Origin: a virus
Strand: one strand, 5' to 3'
Length of the DNA stretch: 45,085 bases
Virus record (IMG/VR): IMGVR_UViG_3300042991_000451
Location: 1 to 45,085 of that record
Made by a program: the position numbers and the translations under genes. The notes under the pieces were generated by a model. It ran no database searches. It had not been told where the DNA came from and saw only the letters and a program-made list of their open reading frames with translations. The first letter of the stretch is position 1; the number at the start of each line of letters is the position of its first letter. Positions 5,254 through 11,014 of the stretch are shown here, piece by piece.

Positions 5254-6039
5254 TCAAGTCCCCTTGCGCGGCAGGACCTTGGTTGGCAGGTCGAGGGGCC
5301 CGGGGAAGTCGGCCGGGGAAGTCGCGAAGCCGTCATCTGGCTCGACACCCGGCGGGCCGGTCTCGACGTCCCCAGGCTCCACATCAGAGCTGGACAGCGG
5401 CGAAATTGAACAGCGGCAGCGGTTCCCGCTGGGCGGATACCACTTCGCCCAAACTGGATCGTCGTGGGCGTAGATCTTACCGTCCATCTCGCGGTGGGTC
5501 GGCCGCACCCGCCCGTCACCAACGGTGCTGTATTGCCAGAAGGGGCGGGCTCGGCGCATCGAGGAAGACGACATCTGCTTCCACCGGCCGTGCTGGTAGG
5601 CGCCGTTGACGTTGTTGGAGAAGACCGTCTCGAGGTGCGCTTTTGTCGGCGCGTCGTCGCCGAGTTTCTTTCGCAGTTCGCGGACGAACTTCGCCCGGGA
5701 CGTCCCCTCCTCGATGGCCTTGGTCAGCGCGTCGGCGACAACGGAGAGTTGGTGGTCATGCTGCAGATGGGCGACGGAGAATGCGCGCTGCTTCATCCCG
5801 TCGCTGAGATCCTTGAACTCATCCGGCTTCATCAGATTGCGGGCCCGCTTCTTGAAGTGCTCGATGGCATCCTTGGGCGGGAGCTTCGTCCAGTCCCTGA
5901 GGGTGTGGCCCTCGTAGCGGATCGCCACCTCGAGGCGCCCGAACAGATCGGCCAGGAGCATTTCCAGGGCGGTGACGGCAGCAAACGCCTTGCGCTCGGG
6001 CCAGGGCACCTTGGGCAACTCGTCGAGCGCCCGCTGCAT
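5254..6039 (-). CDS. MuF-like head morphogenesis protein (possibly translated as a -1 fusion with the portal)
   Basis: From ATG 6039, 261 residues. The C-terminal half carries the MuF signature: FSNNVNGAYQHGRWKQM, RPFWQYSTVGDGRVRPTHREM, DDPVWAKWYPPSGNRCRCSI, which holds the conserved Pro-Ser-Gly-N-x-C-x-C. MuF proteins are minor internal head proteins tied to the portal. ATG 6039 has no ribosome site, and the frame stays open and protein-like upstream (VDDLERRALTRTL, LAQSLNDRISRH) across the portal stop back to an A9 tract, with no ATG, GTG or TTG there. A -1 shift at that tract would join portal and MuF in frame. The start given is therefore the conservative one. Confidence 0.88.
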   Translation of the reverse strand: MQRALDELPKVPWPERKAFAAVTALEMLLADLFGRLEVAIRYEGHTLRDWTKLPPKDAIEHFKKRARNLMKPDEFKDLSDGMKQRAFSVAHLQHDHQLSVVADALTKAIEEGTSRAKFVRELRKKLGDDAPTKAHLETVFSNNVNGAYQHGRWKQMSSSSMRRARPFWQYSTVGDGRVRPTHREMDGKIYAHDDPVWAKWYPPSGNRCRCSISPLSSSDVEPGDVETGPPGVEPDDGFATSPADFPGPLDLPTKVLPRKGT

Positions 6040-6104
6040 CGTGCGCGCCGAGATGTGGCGGGAGATGCGATCGTTGAGGGACTGGGCCAGCGGGAGGGTG
6101 CGCG

Positions 6105-7631
6105 TCAGGGCTCGTCGTTCAAGATCATCGACACGACCCAGTCCTCCAGACTTTTTTTTTCCGCGGCGGAGCGGAGGGCGAAGCGCACGGCAAGTTCAGC
6201 CGCGTCGCGAGCGTTGGCCGGCTCGCCCTCTTCATCTTCGTCCTCAACCTCCTCGGGCGCAGGGCCGGATGAGGCGAACTGCGGCGGGGGGGCGGGGGCC
6301 GGCTTGGCGGGCAACACGGGCTCGCCCTCCTCGGGCTCTGGCACCCCGTAGGTTTCGACCACGTAGCTGATGGGGATCGCCTTGCCCATGCGGTGCAGGC
6401 GCTCGTCCACCTGGGACCGCAGGTCGAGGTCCTGCTCGTCCTCCCAGAGGAACGCGACGGCGGGCACCGGGAACTGCGGGCCGAGATTGGCGTTGACCAT
6501 CACGTGCAGCAGTTGCTGGCGGATGGTGTTCGCAAGGCGAGCGCCGTCCAGCCGCGCCTGGGCGCCCTCATCGAGCTGGTAGGCCTCGACTGCCGACCGG
6601 GCCCCCTTCTCGCCCTGGGTGACCGCCATCGTGCTGCCAACCAGGGCGATGGAGATCTGCTCGTTGCAGTAGCGGATGAAGTCGGGGTGCGGCGCCGCGC
6701 TGCTGAGCCCCTTCGTCTCGAGCAGCTCGATAGAGCCGCTGTCGGGCAGGATGCAGGCGTGGTCCTTGCCGAGGTTCAGCACGGCCTGCCAGAGGGCGTT
6801 GCGATCTGCCTCACCCATACCCGGCCCATACTTGCCCATGCGGGGCGGCACGCCGAGGCGCTCCAGGAAAATCGACCAGTCGGACATCCCGAACCGCTTG
6901 AAGAGCCAGTACCAGCAGACGGTGCGGAAGAGAGCCGCACGGGCGAGAGGTTGGGTGAAGGCCTTCTGTTGGTGGACGATCCACGTCCCCACGGGGAAGG
7001 TCCGGAGGTCCACGCCGTCGGTGATGTGCTCGTCGGTCACCAGCCGGATCGCATCGCGGTCATCGTCGAAGGCCTGCGTCGGGTCACCGAGCTGAAAATT
7101 CACCTGGGGCCACGAGATGAAGCGCCGGGGCCTGTAGAGCCCGCCCTCGAGGTCCCACACCACCTGCGAGGCAGAGAACGCCTTGCCGATGGCGTCGGTC
7201 AGGTCGAAGATGGCATCGTTCAGCTCGGGCACCCCGCCGATGCCGTCCTTGCCCAGGAGCAGCTCGTTGCACATCTCCGCGGCAGCCTCGGCCTGGGGGG
7301 TGTCGTTGGCCGGGGTTATGATCAGCGGGCGCTCGAGCACCGCATGCCGGCGCTTCGAGTAGAGTCTCGACACCTGCGGGTCGCGCTCGACCTCCTCGAA
7401 AACCTCGTACTGCCGCTGGGTGTCGCCCGCGTCCGCCGCCTTGAGGGCGTCGCCCAGGCGCTCCGGAGTCGCCCGCCGCGCGTAGGTGTCGATGGAGTAG
7501 TCGTCGCGGCGCCCCGACTGGAATTTCTTGGAGACGTACTGGATCCACTTCGCATCGGGCGCATCGGGCGCATCGGGCACCCAGCCGCTGAGGGCGCGCC
7601 AGGCGGCGCCGAGCCGGTCACGCATGGTCAT
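6105..7631 (-). CDS. Portal protein, DUF935 / Mu gp29-like
   Basis: 508 residues, the normal DUF935 size. Recognisable blocks are QYEVFEEVERDPQVSRLYSKRRHAVL, split by the family pattern E...DP.V......R...V, FSASQVVWDLEG, YRPRRFISWPQVNF, LFKRFGMSDWSIFLERLGVPPRMGKY and the ALVGSTMAVTQGEKGARSAVE region typical of Mu-like portals. It forms the dodecameric DNA channel at one capsid vertex. ATG 7631 overlaps the terL stop by one base (TGATG). A PDA tripeptide repeat (7551-7577) sits near the N-terminus and a Pro/Glu-rich linker (PAPAPPP, EEVEDEDEEGE) near the end. Codons EKKS at 6161-6150 contain nine consecutive A residues, striking in GC-rich DNA. Confidence 0.94.
   Translation of the reverse strand: MTMRDRLGAAWRALSGWVPDAPDAPDAKWIQYVSKKFQSGRRDDYSIDTYARRATPERLGDALKAADAGDTQRQYEVFEEVERDPQVSRLYSKRRHAVLERPLIITPANDTPQAEAAAEMCNELLLGKDGIGGVPELNDAIFDLTDAIGKAFSASQVVWDLEGGLYRPRRFISWPQVNFQLGDPTQAFDDDRDAIRLVTDEHITDGVDLRTFPVGTWIVHQQKAFTQPLARAALFRTVCWYWLFKRFGMSDWSIFLERLGVPPRMGKYGPGMGEADRNALWQAVLNLGKDHACILPDSGSIELLETKGLSSAAPHPDFIRYCNEQISIALVGSTMAVTQGEKGARSAVEAYQLDEGAQARLDGARLANTIRQQLLHVMVNANLGPQFPVPAVAFLWEDEQDLDLRSQVDERLHRMGKAIPISYVVETYGVPEPEEGEPVLPAKPAPAPPPQFASSGPAPEEVEDEDEEGEPANARDAAELAVRFALRSAAEKKSLEDWVVSMILNDEP
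6152..6160 (-). other. A9 slippery tract at the portal-MuF junction
   Basis: Nine consecutive A residues on the minus strand (codons GAA AAA AAA AGT of the portal). The zero-frame heptamer A AAA AAA fits the X XXY YYZ rule, and A9 is also long enough for RNA polymerase slippage. A -1 shift here continues through AAG TCT GGA GGA CTG GGT without a stop into the MuF frame. A homopolymer sequencing error is the main alternative. Confidence 0.6.
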
Positions 7632-10012
7632 CAGTGGAGGCCTCTCACGCTGCCCATCGTACCACGATAACCGCCCCGGTAGTCCAGCCCTCCCGACCAG
7701 AGCAGGCTGTGAGAGTAGGTCAGGTATCGGCTCGTGTCCATCAGGTGGTCGCCGTTCGCCCCGACGGGGACCTCGGGGTGCGGGTGGTCTTCGCCGGGGA
7801 AGCAGTAGCCGTCGTTTTCCCTCATCCAGTTCGCAAGCCCGCTGTGGACGTAGACCTGTGGCTCGCCGTCGCGGCGCACCGCCACGAGCGAGCGGAAGTG
7901 CTGCACCCCGTCCACGACGGACTTCTCGGCCGGCTGCCAGTCGAGCCCCGCCAGGGCTAGGTGCTTGCACGCCTCAGGCTCGGCCCCGTCCGCCCACCAG
8001 CGGCGGACGCCCCACTTGCGTGTCAGCTCCGCGGCGGCCTCGGCGATCTGCCCGTGCAGCTGCCCGCGACGATACCACTCGTCGACGAGGTACCAGCGGC
8101 CGTCCCAGTCGACCCCGCCGACGAGCAGGGCGGCCGGCGCGGTGTGCCCCCAGTCGACCGCCCCGAAGAAGCTGTGGCACCGCTCGCGCGCCCAGCTTAA
8201 CGGCCAGTCGCTGTGGATGCGGTGCTGGATGGGCCAGGCGAGGCCCTGCAGCTCGAGCACGAGGGCGTCGAGGTACTGGGCGGCGTACTCGGGGCCGAAC
8301 TTCGCCCTGAGGCCCGCCTCGAAGTCAGCCGGCAGGCTGTCGTTGTCCGCGGTGCGCGCCCGGATGACGCCGCCCTGTCGGCGGAACTCACGGACGAGCC
8401 AGTTGTAGCCGAGGGGCGTTGTGGTGGTGTAGAGCCTGCGCCGCTTCGCGCGCGGATCGCGGATGCGGGCCCGAAGGATGTTCCAGGCGTCCGGCTTCAA
8501 GAGCTGCGTCGCTTCGTCGAGCCAGGCCCACCCAAGATTGAGCCCGCTCAGGCGCCCGGGCGCATCGGCCGAGCGGAGGAAGATGCGGCGCCCCGTCGGG
8601 TTCCAGACGAAGAGGCTGTCCGACTTCTTGTGCGTGTAGAGCGACGACGGTATCCACTCCTCCCAGAGAGGAAGCACGACGTCGTGAAGCATGCGATAGG
8701 TGGGGGCCACGATGGCCCCGTCGCAATCAGGATTGTCCGTCGCGAGGAAGACCGCCTCATGCACGCCCGTCAGTGTGTTGTGCGTCGGGATCATCGCCTC
8801 GCCCGCGAGAAAGAGGTGCGATGGAGATGACACCTGAATGCAGCGCACTGGAACGGATGCGACCGGCTCAACCGCGACGATGTAGCGGCGCTTCGTCCGT
8901 TCTTCCTGCTCTGCGTCCGTGCGACGCTGTGACGCCTTGCGCGCGAGCCTGAAGACGGCCCGACGCGTTGACCATGCAACGCGGTACTTCGGGCCAACGT
9001 CCACGCCATCAAGCGTGGCACGCCCCTCTGCGAATGTCGGCTTCATGCCGAGTGACCTGGCCAGTTCCAGCACCGACTCCGCGAGCGTCCGCAGGGTGGA
9101 TGTGAACTCGACGCGATTCGAGTTCTGCATGGCCCAGCCGTCGGTATCCATGAGCCCCTGCAAGAGGCTCATGCGCTGCATCTCAGACGCGCGAAGATAT
9201 CGGGTGGGGATGCGCTTGCTACCCTTGGCGCCCAGCAGCCCGAGCGAGCGTAGCTTCGAGTGCAGGCTGCCATTCGCGAGCATCCTTCCGGTTGTCGCAT
9301 CTCTTCGATGCGGCATGCCCCCGATGGTGTACTTGGACGTCGCCCCTTGACGTGCCCGGGGCTGTTCTCCCGAGTCGAATCCTTCAGAGCGCAGATGCTG
9401 CAAAATCTCTCTATCGTCGTCGTGCATGGTGACGGCGGCTGCACCGCTATCCCCGTCTCCAAGCCACACCCCGAGCACGTAGGGCGGAACCGGAAGGGAA
9501 GCATCGCGAAGCGCCAGCGGGCCGCATGTCGGGATGCTGTGGTTGTGCGTCTTCCTCTTCCCGGCGGTAAGCGTCTCTGCGATGTGCAGCGTTGTCCTGA
9601 TGGATGGACCCACGCGACGTTGGCACTGTGGACGATCGGGGCGAGACGACGCGTGAGATATCCTGCGACCGGGATCGAGCGCGTGCCTTGCCGTCTTGTC
9701 CCACGTGAACCAGCGGTGCTCTGCGTCGGCCACGATGGACGACCCATCATCAAATACCACCCGGAAGCACTCGCGGTCATGCTGCACGCCGGTCGCGAAC
9801 GTGACCATCGTGGGCATCCCGGCCTCATCGAAGACCACATCTCCGACGCGGAGTCGCCCCATCGTCGTCCACCCGCTCGGGGTGGGGATCGGGGTGTCGA
9901 GCGCGAGCGCCTTGCCAGCACCGACCCCGGCGAGGAACAAGGCCTCGTCGTGGGGCAACGCATGGAAGCGCGCCTGGTGCGGCTTGGGGACGTAGGGCGA
10001 GGTCCAGTCCAC
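7631..10012 (-). CDS. terL: Terminase large subunit containing an intein
   Basis: 793 residues including a 378-residue intein; 415 after splicing, usual for Mu-like large terminases. Motor domain: Walker A FLAGVGAGK/TLTG is split by the intein after the Lys; Walker B is WAWLDEA; a coupling motif TTTPLG follows. The C-terminal RNase H-like nuclease has acidic residues in GAVDWGHTAP, WWADGAEPE and NGDHLMDT. It packages DNA into proheads. The start is GTG 10012, overlapping the terS stop (TAGTG); upstream in-frame sequence is terS shadow. Terminase activity depends on protein splicing because the intein interrupts the ATP-binding loop. Confidence 0.95.
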   Translation of the reverse strand: MDWTSPYVPKPHQARFHALPHDEALFLAGVGAGKALALDTPIPTPSGWTTMGRLRVGDVVFDEAGMPTMVTFATGVQHDRECFRVVFDDGSSIVADAEHRWFTWDKTARHALDPGRRISHASSRPDRPQCQRRVGPSIRTTLHIAETLTAGKRKTHNHSIPTCGPLALRDASLPVPPYVLGVWLGDGDSGAAAVTMHDDDREILQHLRSEGFDSGEQPRARQGATSKYTIGGMPHRRDATTGRMLANGSLHSKLRSLGLLGAKGSKRIPTRYLRASEMQRMSLLQGLMDTDGWAMQNSNRVEFTSTLRTLAESVLELARSLGMKPTFAEGRATLDGVDVGPKYRVAWSTRRAVFRLARKASQRRTDAEQEERTKRRYIVAVEPVASVPVRCIQVSSPSHLFLAGEAMIPTHNTLTGVHEAVFLATDNPDCDGAIVAPTYRMLHDVVLPLWEEWIPSSLYTHKKSDSLFVWNPTGRRIFLRSADAPGRLSGLNLGWAWLDEATQLLKPDAWNILRARIRDPRAKRRRLYTTTTPLGYNWLVREFRRQGGVIRARTADNDSLPADFEAGLRAKFGPEYAAQYLDALVLELQGLAWPIQHRIHSDWPLSWARERCHSFFGAVDWGHTAPAALLVGGVDWDGRWYLVDEWYRRGQLHGQIAEAAAELTRKWGVRRWWADGAEPEACKHLALAGLDWQPAEKSVVDGVQHFRSLVAVRRDGEPQVYVHSGLANWMRENDGYCFPGEDHPHPEVPVGANGDHLMDTSRYLTYSHSLLWSGGLDYRGGYRGTMGSVRGLH
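8777..9910 (-). mobile_element. Class 3 intein with LAGLIDADG homing endonuclease in the terminase Walker A motif
   Basis: 378 residues between GAGK and TLTG. It begins ALALDTPIPTPSGW with Ala, not Cys or Ser, at position 1, and ends IPTHN followed by Thr. Class 3 inteins use a Trp-Cys-Thr triad: Trp follows the block B His by two (DAEHRWFT), Cys is at F:4 (VRCIQV), and Thr is the +1 extein residue; all three are present. The endonuclease carries both dodecapeptides, LGVWLGDG and LQGLMDTDG, with the acidic residues retained, so homing and splicing both look functional. Boundaries follow from restoring the Walker A motif. Confidence 0.93.
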
Positions 10013-10467
10013 TACTTCCCGCCTCCGTTCCCGTTGCCGGGCTTCTCGGCGATGTCCCCGACCACGGCAAGGTCGTCGCCCTTCGCCGTGGGGTCCACTG
10101 CGGGCCGAATGAAGTTGATCGTGATGCCGGTCCCACCCACCGGGTCGTCCGGCTTGAACACGCGCCGGGCCCACCGCTGCGGCCAGCGGCGTTCCATCAT
10201 CGTCATGGCGGCCTGCCAGGAGGTCTGCGCGGCCTGCCGCACGATCAGAGCCAGGCTTGCCTCTCCGACCCCCTCTGCGTTTTTGGTTGCGTCGAGGAAC
10301 TCGCGGTAGAGCCCGCTCTTCGCCTTGCGCCCCTTGGCCCGCCATGCGTGGAACGTCGCCGGGTGAATGCCCGCGTGAGCTGCTGCCGCCTCGAGCGGGA
10401 CGCCCAGCTTGATCAGCTTCACGATGGCGTCGTGGACTTTTGGGGTGAGCTTCGTGGGGCGGCCCAT
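10012..10467 (-). CDS. terS: Terminase small subunit
   Basis: 151 residues. The N-terminus is a helix-turn-helix (MGRPTKLTPKVHDAI..., GVPLEAAAAHAGIHPATFHAWRAKG) of the type found in small terminases, followed by a helical segment (GLYREFLDATKNAEG, ALIVRQAAQTSWQAAMTMMERRWP) and a flexible Gly/Asn tail (GNGNGGGK). It recognises phage DNA and recruits the large subunit, whose GTG start overlaps its stop. The gene lies eight bases after a truncated ParB-like remnant and is the first clear late gene of the minus arm. Confidence 0.88.
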   Translation of the reverse strand: MGRPTKLTPKVHDAIVKLIKLGVPLEAAAAHAGIHPATFHAWRAKGRKAKSGLYREFLDATKNAEGVGEASLALIVRQAAQTSWQAAMTMMERRWPQRWARRVFKPDDPVGGTGITINFIRPAVDPTAKGDDLAVVGDIAEKPGNGNGGGK

Positions 10468-10992: not shown

Positions 10993-11014
10993 GACCATCC
11001 TTTTTTTTGATTTG

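Follow-up and report, generated by a model that had tools for sequence, protein, structure and literature searches.

The portal and MuF genes around an A9 tract

The window, meaning the whole 45,085-nucleotide stretch of Mu-like phage DNA analyzed here, carries on its minus strand a portal gene (6105..7631) whose ATG overlaps the stop codon of the terminase gene. Its zero-frame product of 508 amino acids matches Portal_Mu (PF06074) on residues 75-430 (E=1.9e-78; 264.6 bits against a cut-off of 23.9), and the match spans model positions 1-336 of 336. In order, this product comprises the Portal_Mu core (6342..7409, minus strand), which is equivalent to the resolved part of the JBD30 and Mu connector structures, a linker rich in Pro, Asp and Glu (6162..6311, minus strand), the lysines encoded by an A tract, a short tail, and a TGA at 6107-6105. 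Near the portal N-terminus, tandem 9-mers (GCGCCCGAT, at 7551-7572 on the minus strand) encode PDAPDAPDA. The ORF at the position of the terminase large subunit (7634-10345, minus strand) has a LAGLIDADG-type, intein-like insertion (PF14528, PF05204) in its Walker A region, between GVGAGK and TLTGVHEAV.

The tract is a run of nine A (6152..6160, minus strand) in the context ...GCG GAA AAA AAA AGT CTG..., and it includes an in-frame A_AAA_AAA. An earlier note on this DNA had placed GAA AAA AAA AGT at 6161-6150, and these coordinates are correct on the minus strand. The note's remark that nine A in a row is striking in GC-rich DNA was likewise borne out. No other run of nine or more A or T occurs in the 45 kb, which is 69% GC and for which a first-order Markov model predicts 0.00036 such runs of A and 0.0008 of T, or about 0.001 in total. 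It also lies within the few dozen bases where a run would be able to link two reading frames. The only other A or T run of at least eight in the record is a T8 at 11001-11008 (plus strand), near the end of a VapE-like gene.

In frame 0, the stop is reached 47 nt past the tract, and the +1 frame closes 11 codons on. The -1 frame has no stop between about 6195, a point 35 nt before the tract, and 5254, in agreement with the claim that MuF lies in a -1 frame open from the tract. Codon and Shine-Dalgarno (SD) inspection also upheld the claim that this frame has no start before 6039 and no ribosome site there. Its first ATG, GTG or TTG is the ATG at 6037..6039 (minus strand), which is disfavored as a start because no SD sequence precedes it and which falls inside a portal domain. 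Just 3' of the tract is an SD-like GGAGG (6147-6143, within a feature at 6132-6147, minus strand) with a GTG eight bases on.

The -1 frame encodes two things in succession. A portal C-terminal helical domain, recognized by alignment, occupies 5920..6132 (minus strand; LERRALTRTLPLAQSLNDRI...ALEMLLADLFGRLEVA), and it continues in frame (LPPKDAIEHF...) into MuF, a Mu gp30-like internal head protein (5254..5919, minus strand). The MuF assignment rests on a Phage_Mu_F (PF04233) match over 5404-5739 (E=4.6e-22; 79.3 bits against a cut-off of 29.6) with the CRC motif present. Between tract and zero-frame stop is a dual-coded stretch (6105..6151, minus strand), read in frame 0 as the tail SLEDWVVSMILNDEP-stop and in frame -1 as the beginning of the portal C-terminal domain. 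The -1 translation across the portal stop had been described as plausible protein. It is indeed protein-like, but it is not the N-terminal part of MuF; it aligns with canonical portal C-termini and with the same stretch of four relatives (L323, L282, L308 and L091). Where Mu-like phages keep the two genes separate, this helical domain forms the end of the portal, and MuF begins a few bases from the portal stop. As judged from the alignment, the window gene is a portal-MuF fusion interrupted by one base at the tract, since the C-terminal domain follows the tract directly in the -1 frame and is in frame with MuF.

Structural comparison indicates what the unshifted product would contain. The Mu and JBD30 portals have the same Portal_Mu core as the window, with their C-terminal domain in the portal's own frame and MuF separate. 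In the solved connectors, residues 5-409 of 526 (JBD30) and 4-398 of 512 (Mu) are resolved, leaving the C-terminal ~115 residues unresolved. A model of a canonical portal (L098; 59-sequence alignment, pLDDT 80) has its core up to about residue 410, then a linker of low confidence that is homologous to the window's, and a three-helix C-terminal domain at 439-519. An AlphaFold2 model of a natural portal-MuF fusion (L295) was poor (pLDDT 52) and was set aside. The crown, wing, stem and clip of JBD30 are described within the resolved part (PMC11445458). Because the resolved parts correspond to the core with these elements, the unshifted window product, on sequence equivalence, is predicted to hold everything visible in a mature connector. 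The idea that the C-terminal domain is the portal crown was rejected, since the crown is in the resolved part, which stops at residue 409 (PMC11445458).

Recurrence of the layout and constraint on the overlap

Comparison with related phages, which the earlier note had proposed as a check, revealed the same layout in 20 other sequences, so that 21 distinct viral or prophage sequences are now known to carry it when each contig or phage is taken once. In this layout, a Portal_Mu core is followed by A9-A11, a zero-frame stop 10-95 nt later, and the C-terminal domain plus MuF in the -1 frame. The relatives were drawn from several hundred portal/MuF loci collected by portal and MuF alignment scans, one junction pattern and two phylum searches. 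In addition to the window, they are L090 (on the same contig as L076), L091, L092, L172, L174 and L286; L282, L323, L293, L308, L338, L276 and L309; L278; L268, L275, L281 and L285; and L365 and L373, which come from assembled bacterial genomes and not from viral contigs. An A9 pattern scan gave the first sight of L172 and L174, and the MuF scan recovered both contigs. Of the seven loci from the pattern scan, four added no slip locus to the set; L169 and L173 duplicate contigs that it contained, and L170 and L171 have no portal and resemble terminator hairpins. A seven-sequence portal alignment was too diverse to serve as a scan query.

The sequences that share this layout are diverse, with portal identity between groups falling to 20-30%. 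Any of the three codon positions can hold the first base of the tract, and the net shift is nevertheless -1 in all 21. Zero-frame tails after the tract are kept within clades ([VI]P[IV]G[SA]RL in one and RFxxLRPSMxR in another). A quick tree of 78 portals, in which the window and L278 sit on long branches, implies about four changes of tract state, at least three of them forced by well-supported branches. No close relative of the window emerged from scans that used its portal, MuF and major head protein one at a time (the best portal is ~35% identical), so the window's own tract has no direct conservation test. The layout was not seen among isolate phages of the collection in the best hits of four portal queries, and the Nodularia phage L334 lacks the tract.

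Several of the loci collected have individual peculiarities. The MuF frame of L281 breaks 69 codons past the tract. L339 (4846-6151) keeps an A10 tract, and directly behind it an antisense homing-endonuclease-like gene replaces MuF; no MuF follows the tract in the stretch that was read. In L293 (3015-4769), the -1 MuF product has a C-terminal ADP-ribosyltransferase-like domain (PF03496), a MuF-toxin pairing accessible only through the slip. L076 has an in-frame TGA (5570-5572) at the first Cys of the MuF NCRC motif, and a sensible frame continues beyond it; this may reflect recoding, an error or decay.

The 271 portal loci scanned (2.02 Mb) contain 19 runs of at least nine A on the sense strand. 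Of these, 16 fall within the final 130 nt of a portal ORF, compared with 0.33 expected (relatedness uncorrected). No such run was found near the end of 10 single-frame fusions or of 29 portals without MuF. Substitution patterns could be evaluated for L282 and L323, whose DNA is 74% identical. The portal has a pN/pS of 0.17 and MuF one of 0.20, while the value for the -1 C-terminal domain is 0.41. Over the 91 nt of overlap, pS is lower in both frames (0.38 in the zero frame, 0.39 in the -1 frame) than before it (0.68) or after it (0.67-0.72). For this pair, the overlap thus appears to be constrained in both frames.

These observations bear on the concern that the true genome might have A10, making this a plain fused gene misread through an assembly or sequencing error. 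Homopolymers are the commonest site of indel errors, and a uniform under-call would always look like a -1 shift. Such an error would have had to occur, however, in 21 distinct sequences from many projects, genome assemblies among them. Two sequences from different metagenome data sets (L268 and L271) both have A11, with 2 mismatches in 4594 nt. Furthermore, a fused ORF needs neither the retained zero-frame stop and tail nor an overlap constrained in both frames, which would not be expected of an under-called fusion or of a decaying gene, and such a tract is absent from all 10 single-frame fusions. We consider an A10 genome very unlikely. More generally, assembly error or gene decay is an unlikely cause on this comparative evidence because the layout recurs and relatives have arrived at alternative solutions. 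The tract is very probably a real switch rather than a sequencing error, as far as comparison of genomes can tell.

Replication slippage might instead toggle the fusion on and off between genomes, as in phase variation. Runs of A9-A11 are hypermutable and tract length does vary among relatives, yet none of the 21 sequences is in frame, an outcome with P ~2e-4 if a third were in frame (relatedness ignored). Flanking sequences also compensate for changes in tract phase, as between L282 and L338. Phase variation is consequently extremely unlikely.

A different possibility is that MuF has an initiation site of its own within the gene, at ATG 6039 or at a non-standard codon, and that its translation is coupled to termination of the portal. 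Most relatives indeed have portal and MuF as separate, overlapping genes, two loci (L310 and L326) have a +1 ORF that possesses a GTG or ATG and encodes the C-terminal domain together with MuF, and the window has the GGAGG noted above. Nevertheless, initiation at 6039, which lacks an SD sequence, would split the C-terminal domain, and the GTG and ATG behind the GGAGG are in frame 0 and meet a TGA after 9 codons. The closest -1 start in relatives sits 42-210 nt past the start of the tract, mostly without an SD sequence. Independent initiation of MuF can hardly be credited given these facts.

Probable slippage by polymerase or ribosome

If the tract is a recoding site, either RNA polymerase or the ribosome could be the machine that slips. 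Bacterial transcription slips on runs of nine A, and in many bacteria selection is evident at this length (PMC1088944). The window meets the expectation for transcriptional slippage that a run of at least nine be rare by chance, and the 21 sequences meet the further expectation that a long ORF be reachable only by an indel at the run and that this be conserved in relatives. RNA-polymerase slippage is inferred to be moderately favored over ribosomal frameshifting because 9-11 A are kept, the codon phase varies, and there is no common SD sequence or RNA fold.

Ribosomal -1 frameshifting alone, acting at A_AAA_AAA without appreciable polymerase slippage, could also make the fusion. This heptamer, of the X_XXY_YYZ type, is in frame in the window and in the cases inspected. 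By the heuristic of Antonov et al., a single shift direction hints at ribosomal frameshifting (PMC3711429), and only -1 occurs among the 21 sequences, although the same paper lists dnaX as an exception in mechanism. A-rich heptamers can shift without stimulators in E. coli (PMC4066793). Moreover, classical -1 heptamers are present at the same portal/MuF junction in two other loci (T_TTT_TTT at 2779-2785 in L330 and C_CCT_TTT at ~2315 in L318), which indicates that frameshifting can work there. However, seven A would be enough for a ribosome, yet all 21 tracts have 9-11. The codon phase of the tract wanders freely, and conserved stimulators, which are customary but not essential for -1 frameshifting, appear to be absent. 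The window has neither an SD stimulator nor a downstream RNA fold, an SD sequence is present in only 5 of 19 sequences, and RNA folds past the tract are no better than those of shuffled sequences (mean z -0.27). A purely ribosomal mechanism remains possible but doubtful. The portal/MuF frame change of L256 (3054-3231), where C_CCT_TTC lies 135 nt before the zero-frame stop, is of unclear cause and was not counted.

Predicted products and comparison with known systems

Our interpretation, which we hold to be highly probable, is that programmed recoding takes place at the A9 between portal and MuF and yields a core-only portal and a portal-MuF fusion. Slippage itself, the responsible machine, the rate and the use of the products are inferred, and there are no transcript, ribosome-profiling or peptide data. 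Most messages or ribosomes would stay in frame 0 and stop 47 nt past the tract, giving the core-only portal. A fraction would gain one base at the tract, most likely through RNA polymerase adding one A (net -1), or possibly through ribosomes slipping -1 on A_AAA_AAA. The shifted reading would then proceed through the portal C-terminal domain into MuF, producing a fusion of ~790 aa. Dodecamers that mix the two products might hold MuF within the head in limited numbers, tethered to the portal.

The earlier note's proposal of a slippage-made portal-MuF fusion thus gains support from recurrence and constraint. Its division into two products, portal and portal-MuF, holds for the fusion, but the unshifted product is the core only, without the C-terminal domain, and the fixed ratio that the note envisaged for the two products is still conjecture. 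Whichever machine slips, the inferred choice is between core alone and core plus C-terminal domain plus MuF.

Tethering a limited number of MuF copies to the portal ring is a likely use of the slip, by analogy with phage SPP1, because the SPP1 portal retains a few copies of gp7, a MuF-type protein, in the procapsid (PMC6316719). As in our proposal, the gp6 portal of SPP1 places few MuF-type copies in the head, whereas gp6 and gp7 are products of separate genes and bind non-covalently. If the proposal is true, it would offer a simple answer to the question of how an internal head protein can be carried by a 12-fold ring in small and regulated numbers. There is also a consequence for annotation, as such genes get called a truncated portal and an orphan MuF without a start.

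The elements of this arrangement, namely A9 slippage, frameshifts in phage structural genes and portal-MuF fusions (PMC7302621), are already known separately. Thermus thermophilus dnaX (tau and gamma) likewise has a sense-strand A9 late in a GC-rich gene and makes two products sharing an N-terminus by transcriptional slippage. There, slippage affects about half and shortens the product (PMC1088944), whereas in the window the slip would lengthen the product and join two structural proteins. In Shigella mxiE and bacterial IS transposases, a one-base insertion at a homopolymer joins two ORFs (PMC1088944), as proposed here; slippage is required for the longer product, but these are regulators and transposases rather than virion proteins. 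Lambda G/GT, the T3/T7 capsid, Lactobacillus phage A2 and Listeria phage PSA each obtain from one gene a minority product with a C-terminal extension (PMC5009743), although by ribosomal frameshifting and in tail chaperone, capsid or tail-shaft genes, not in a portal gene. Microbacterium phages of clusters EA3, EA5, EA8 and EB have the same portal-MuF pairing in one polypeptide (PMC7302621), but as a plain fusion with one product and no recoding. A literature search of partial coverage found no description of a recoded portal or of a slippage-made portal-MuF fusion, and the window would be an example of such a recoded portal gene.

Other loci exhibit different solutions at the same junction. 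Sister loci include single-frame portal-MuF fusions (L257, L258, L266, L274 and L295). The claim that some phages pair portal and MuF in single genes holds for L295, in which PF06074 and PF04233 fall within one ORF, and for the Microbacterium phages. Core-only Mu-type portals with the protease next are found in L179 (4001-5248), L186 (3539-4786) and L189 (3992-5272), and the MuF profile has no match anywhere in the genomes of L179 and L186. Each predicted product, core-only portal and single-frame fusion, therefore occurs alone elsewhere. These natural variants (separate, fused, slip, heptamer, own start and core only) could be used to test what the portal C-terminal domain and MuF contribute to packaging and ejection.

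A broader hypothesis, which we regard as evenly poised between right and wrong, is that a slippage switch has arisen repeatedly in Mu-like phages and sets the number of MuF copies tethered to a twelve-fold portal in the manner of Gag-Pol, and that within one lineage ribosomal frameshifting has taken the place of polymerase slippage at this junction, as happened with dnaX among bacteria. The latter part concerns L365, which carries A9 and apparently belongs to the same lineage as the heptamer-bearing L330 and L318.

In another group of loci (L105, L117, L119, L097, L180 and others), Portal_Mu is fused in frame to a different C-terminal domain. PF04233 was not matched in L105, the one locus of this group that was scanned. 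The L105-type domain has the motif CxFCxAMNGxII...LPPYHPHCRG.
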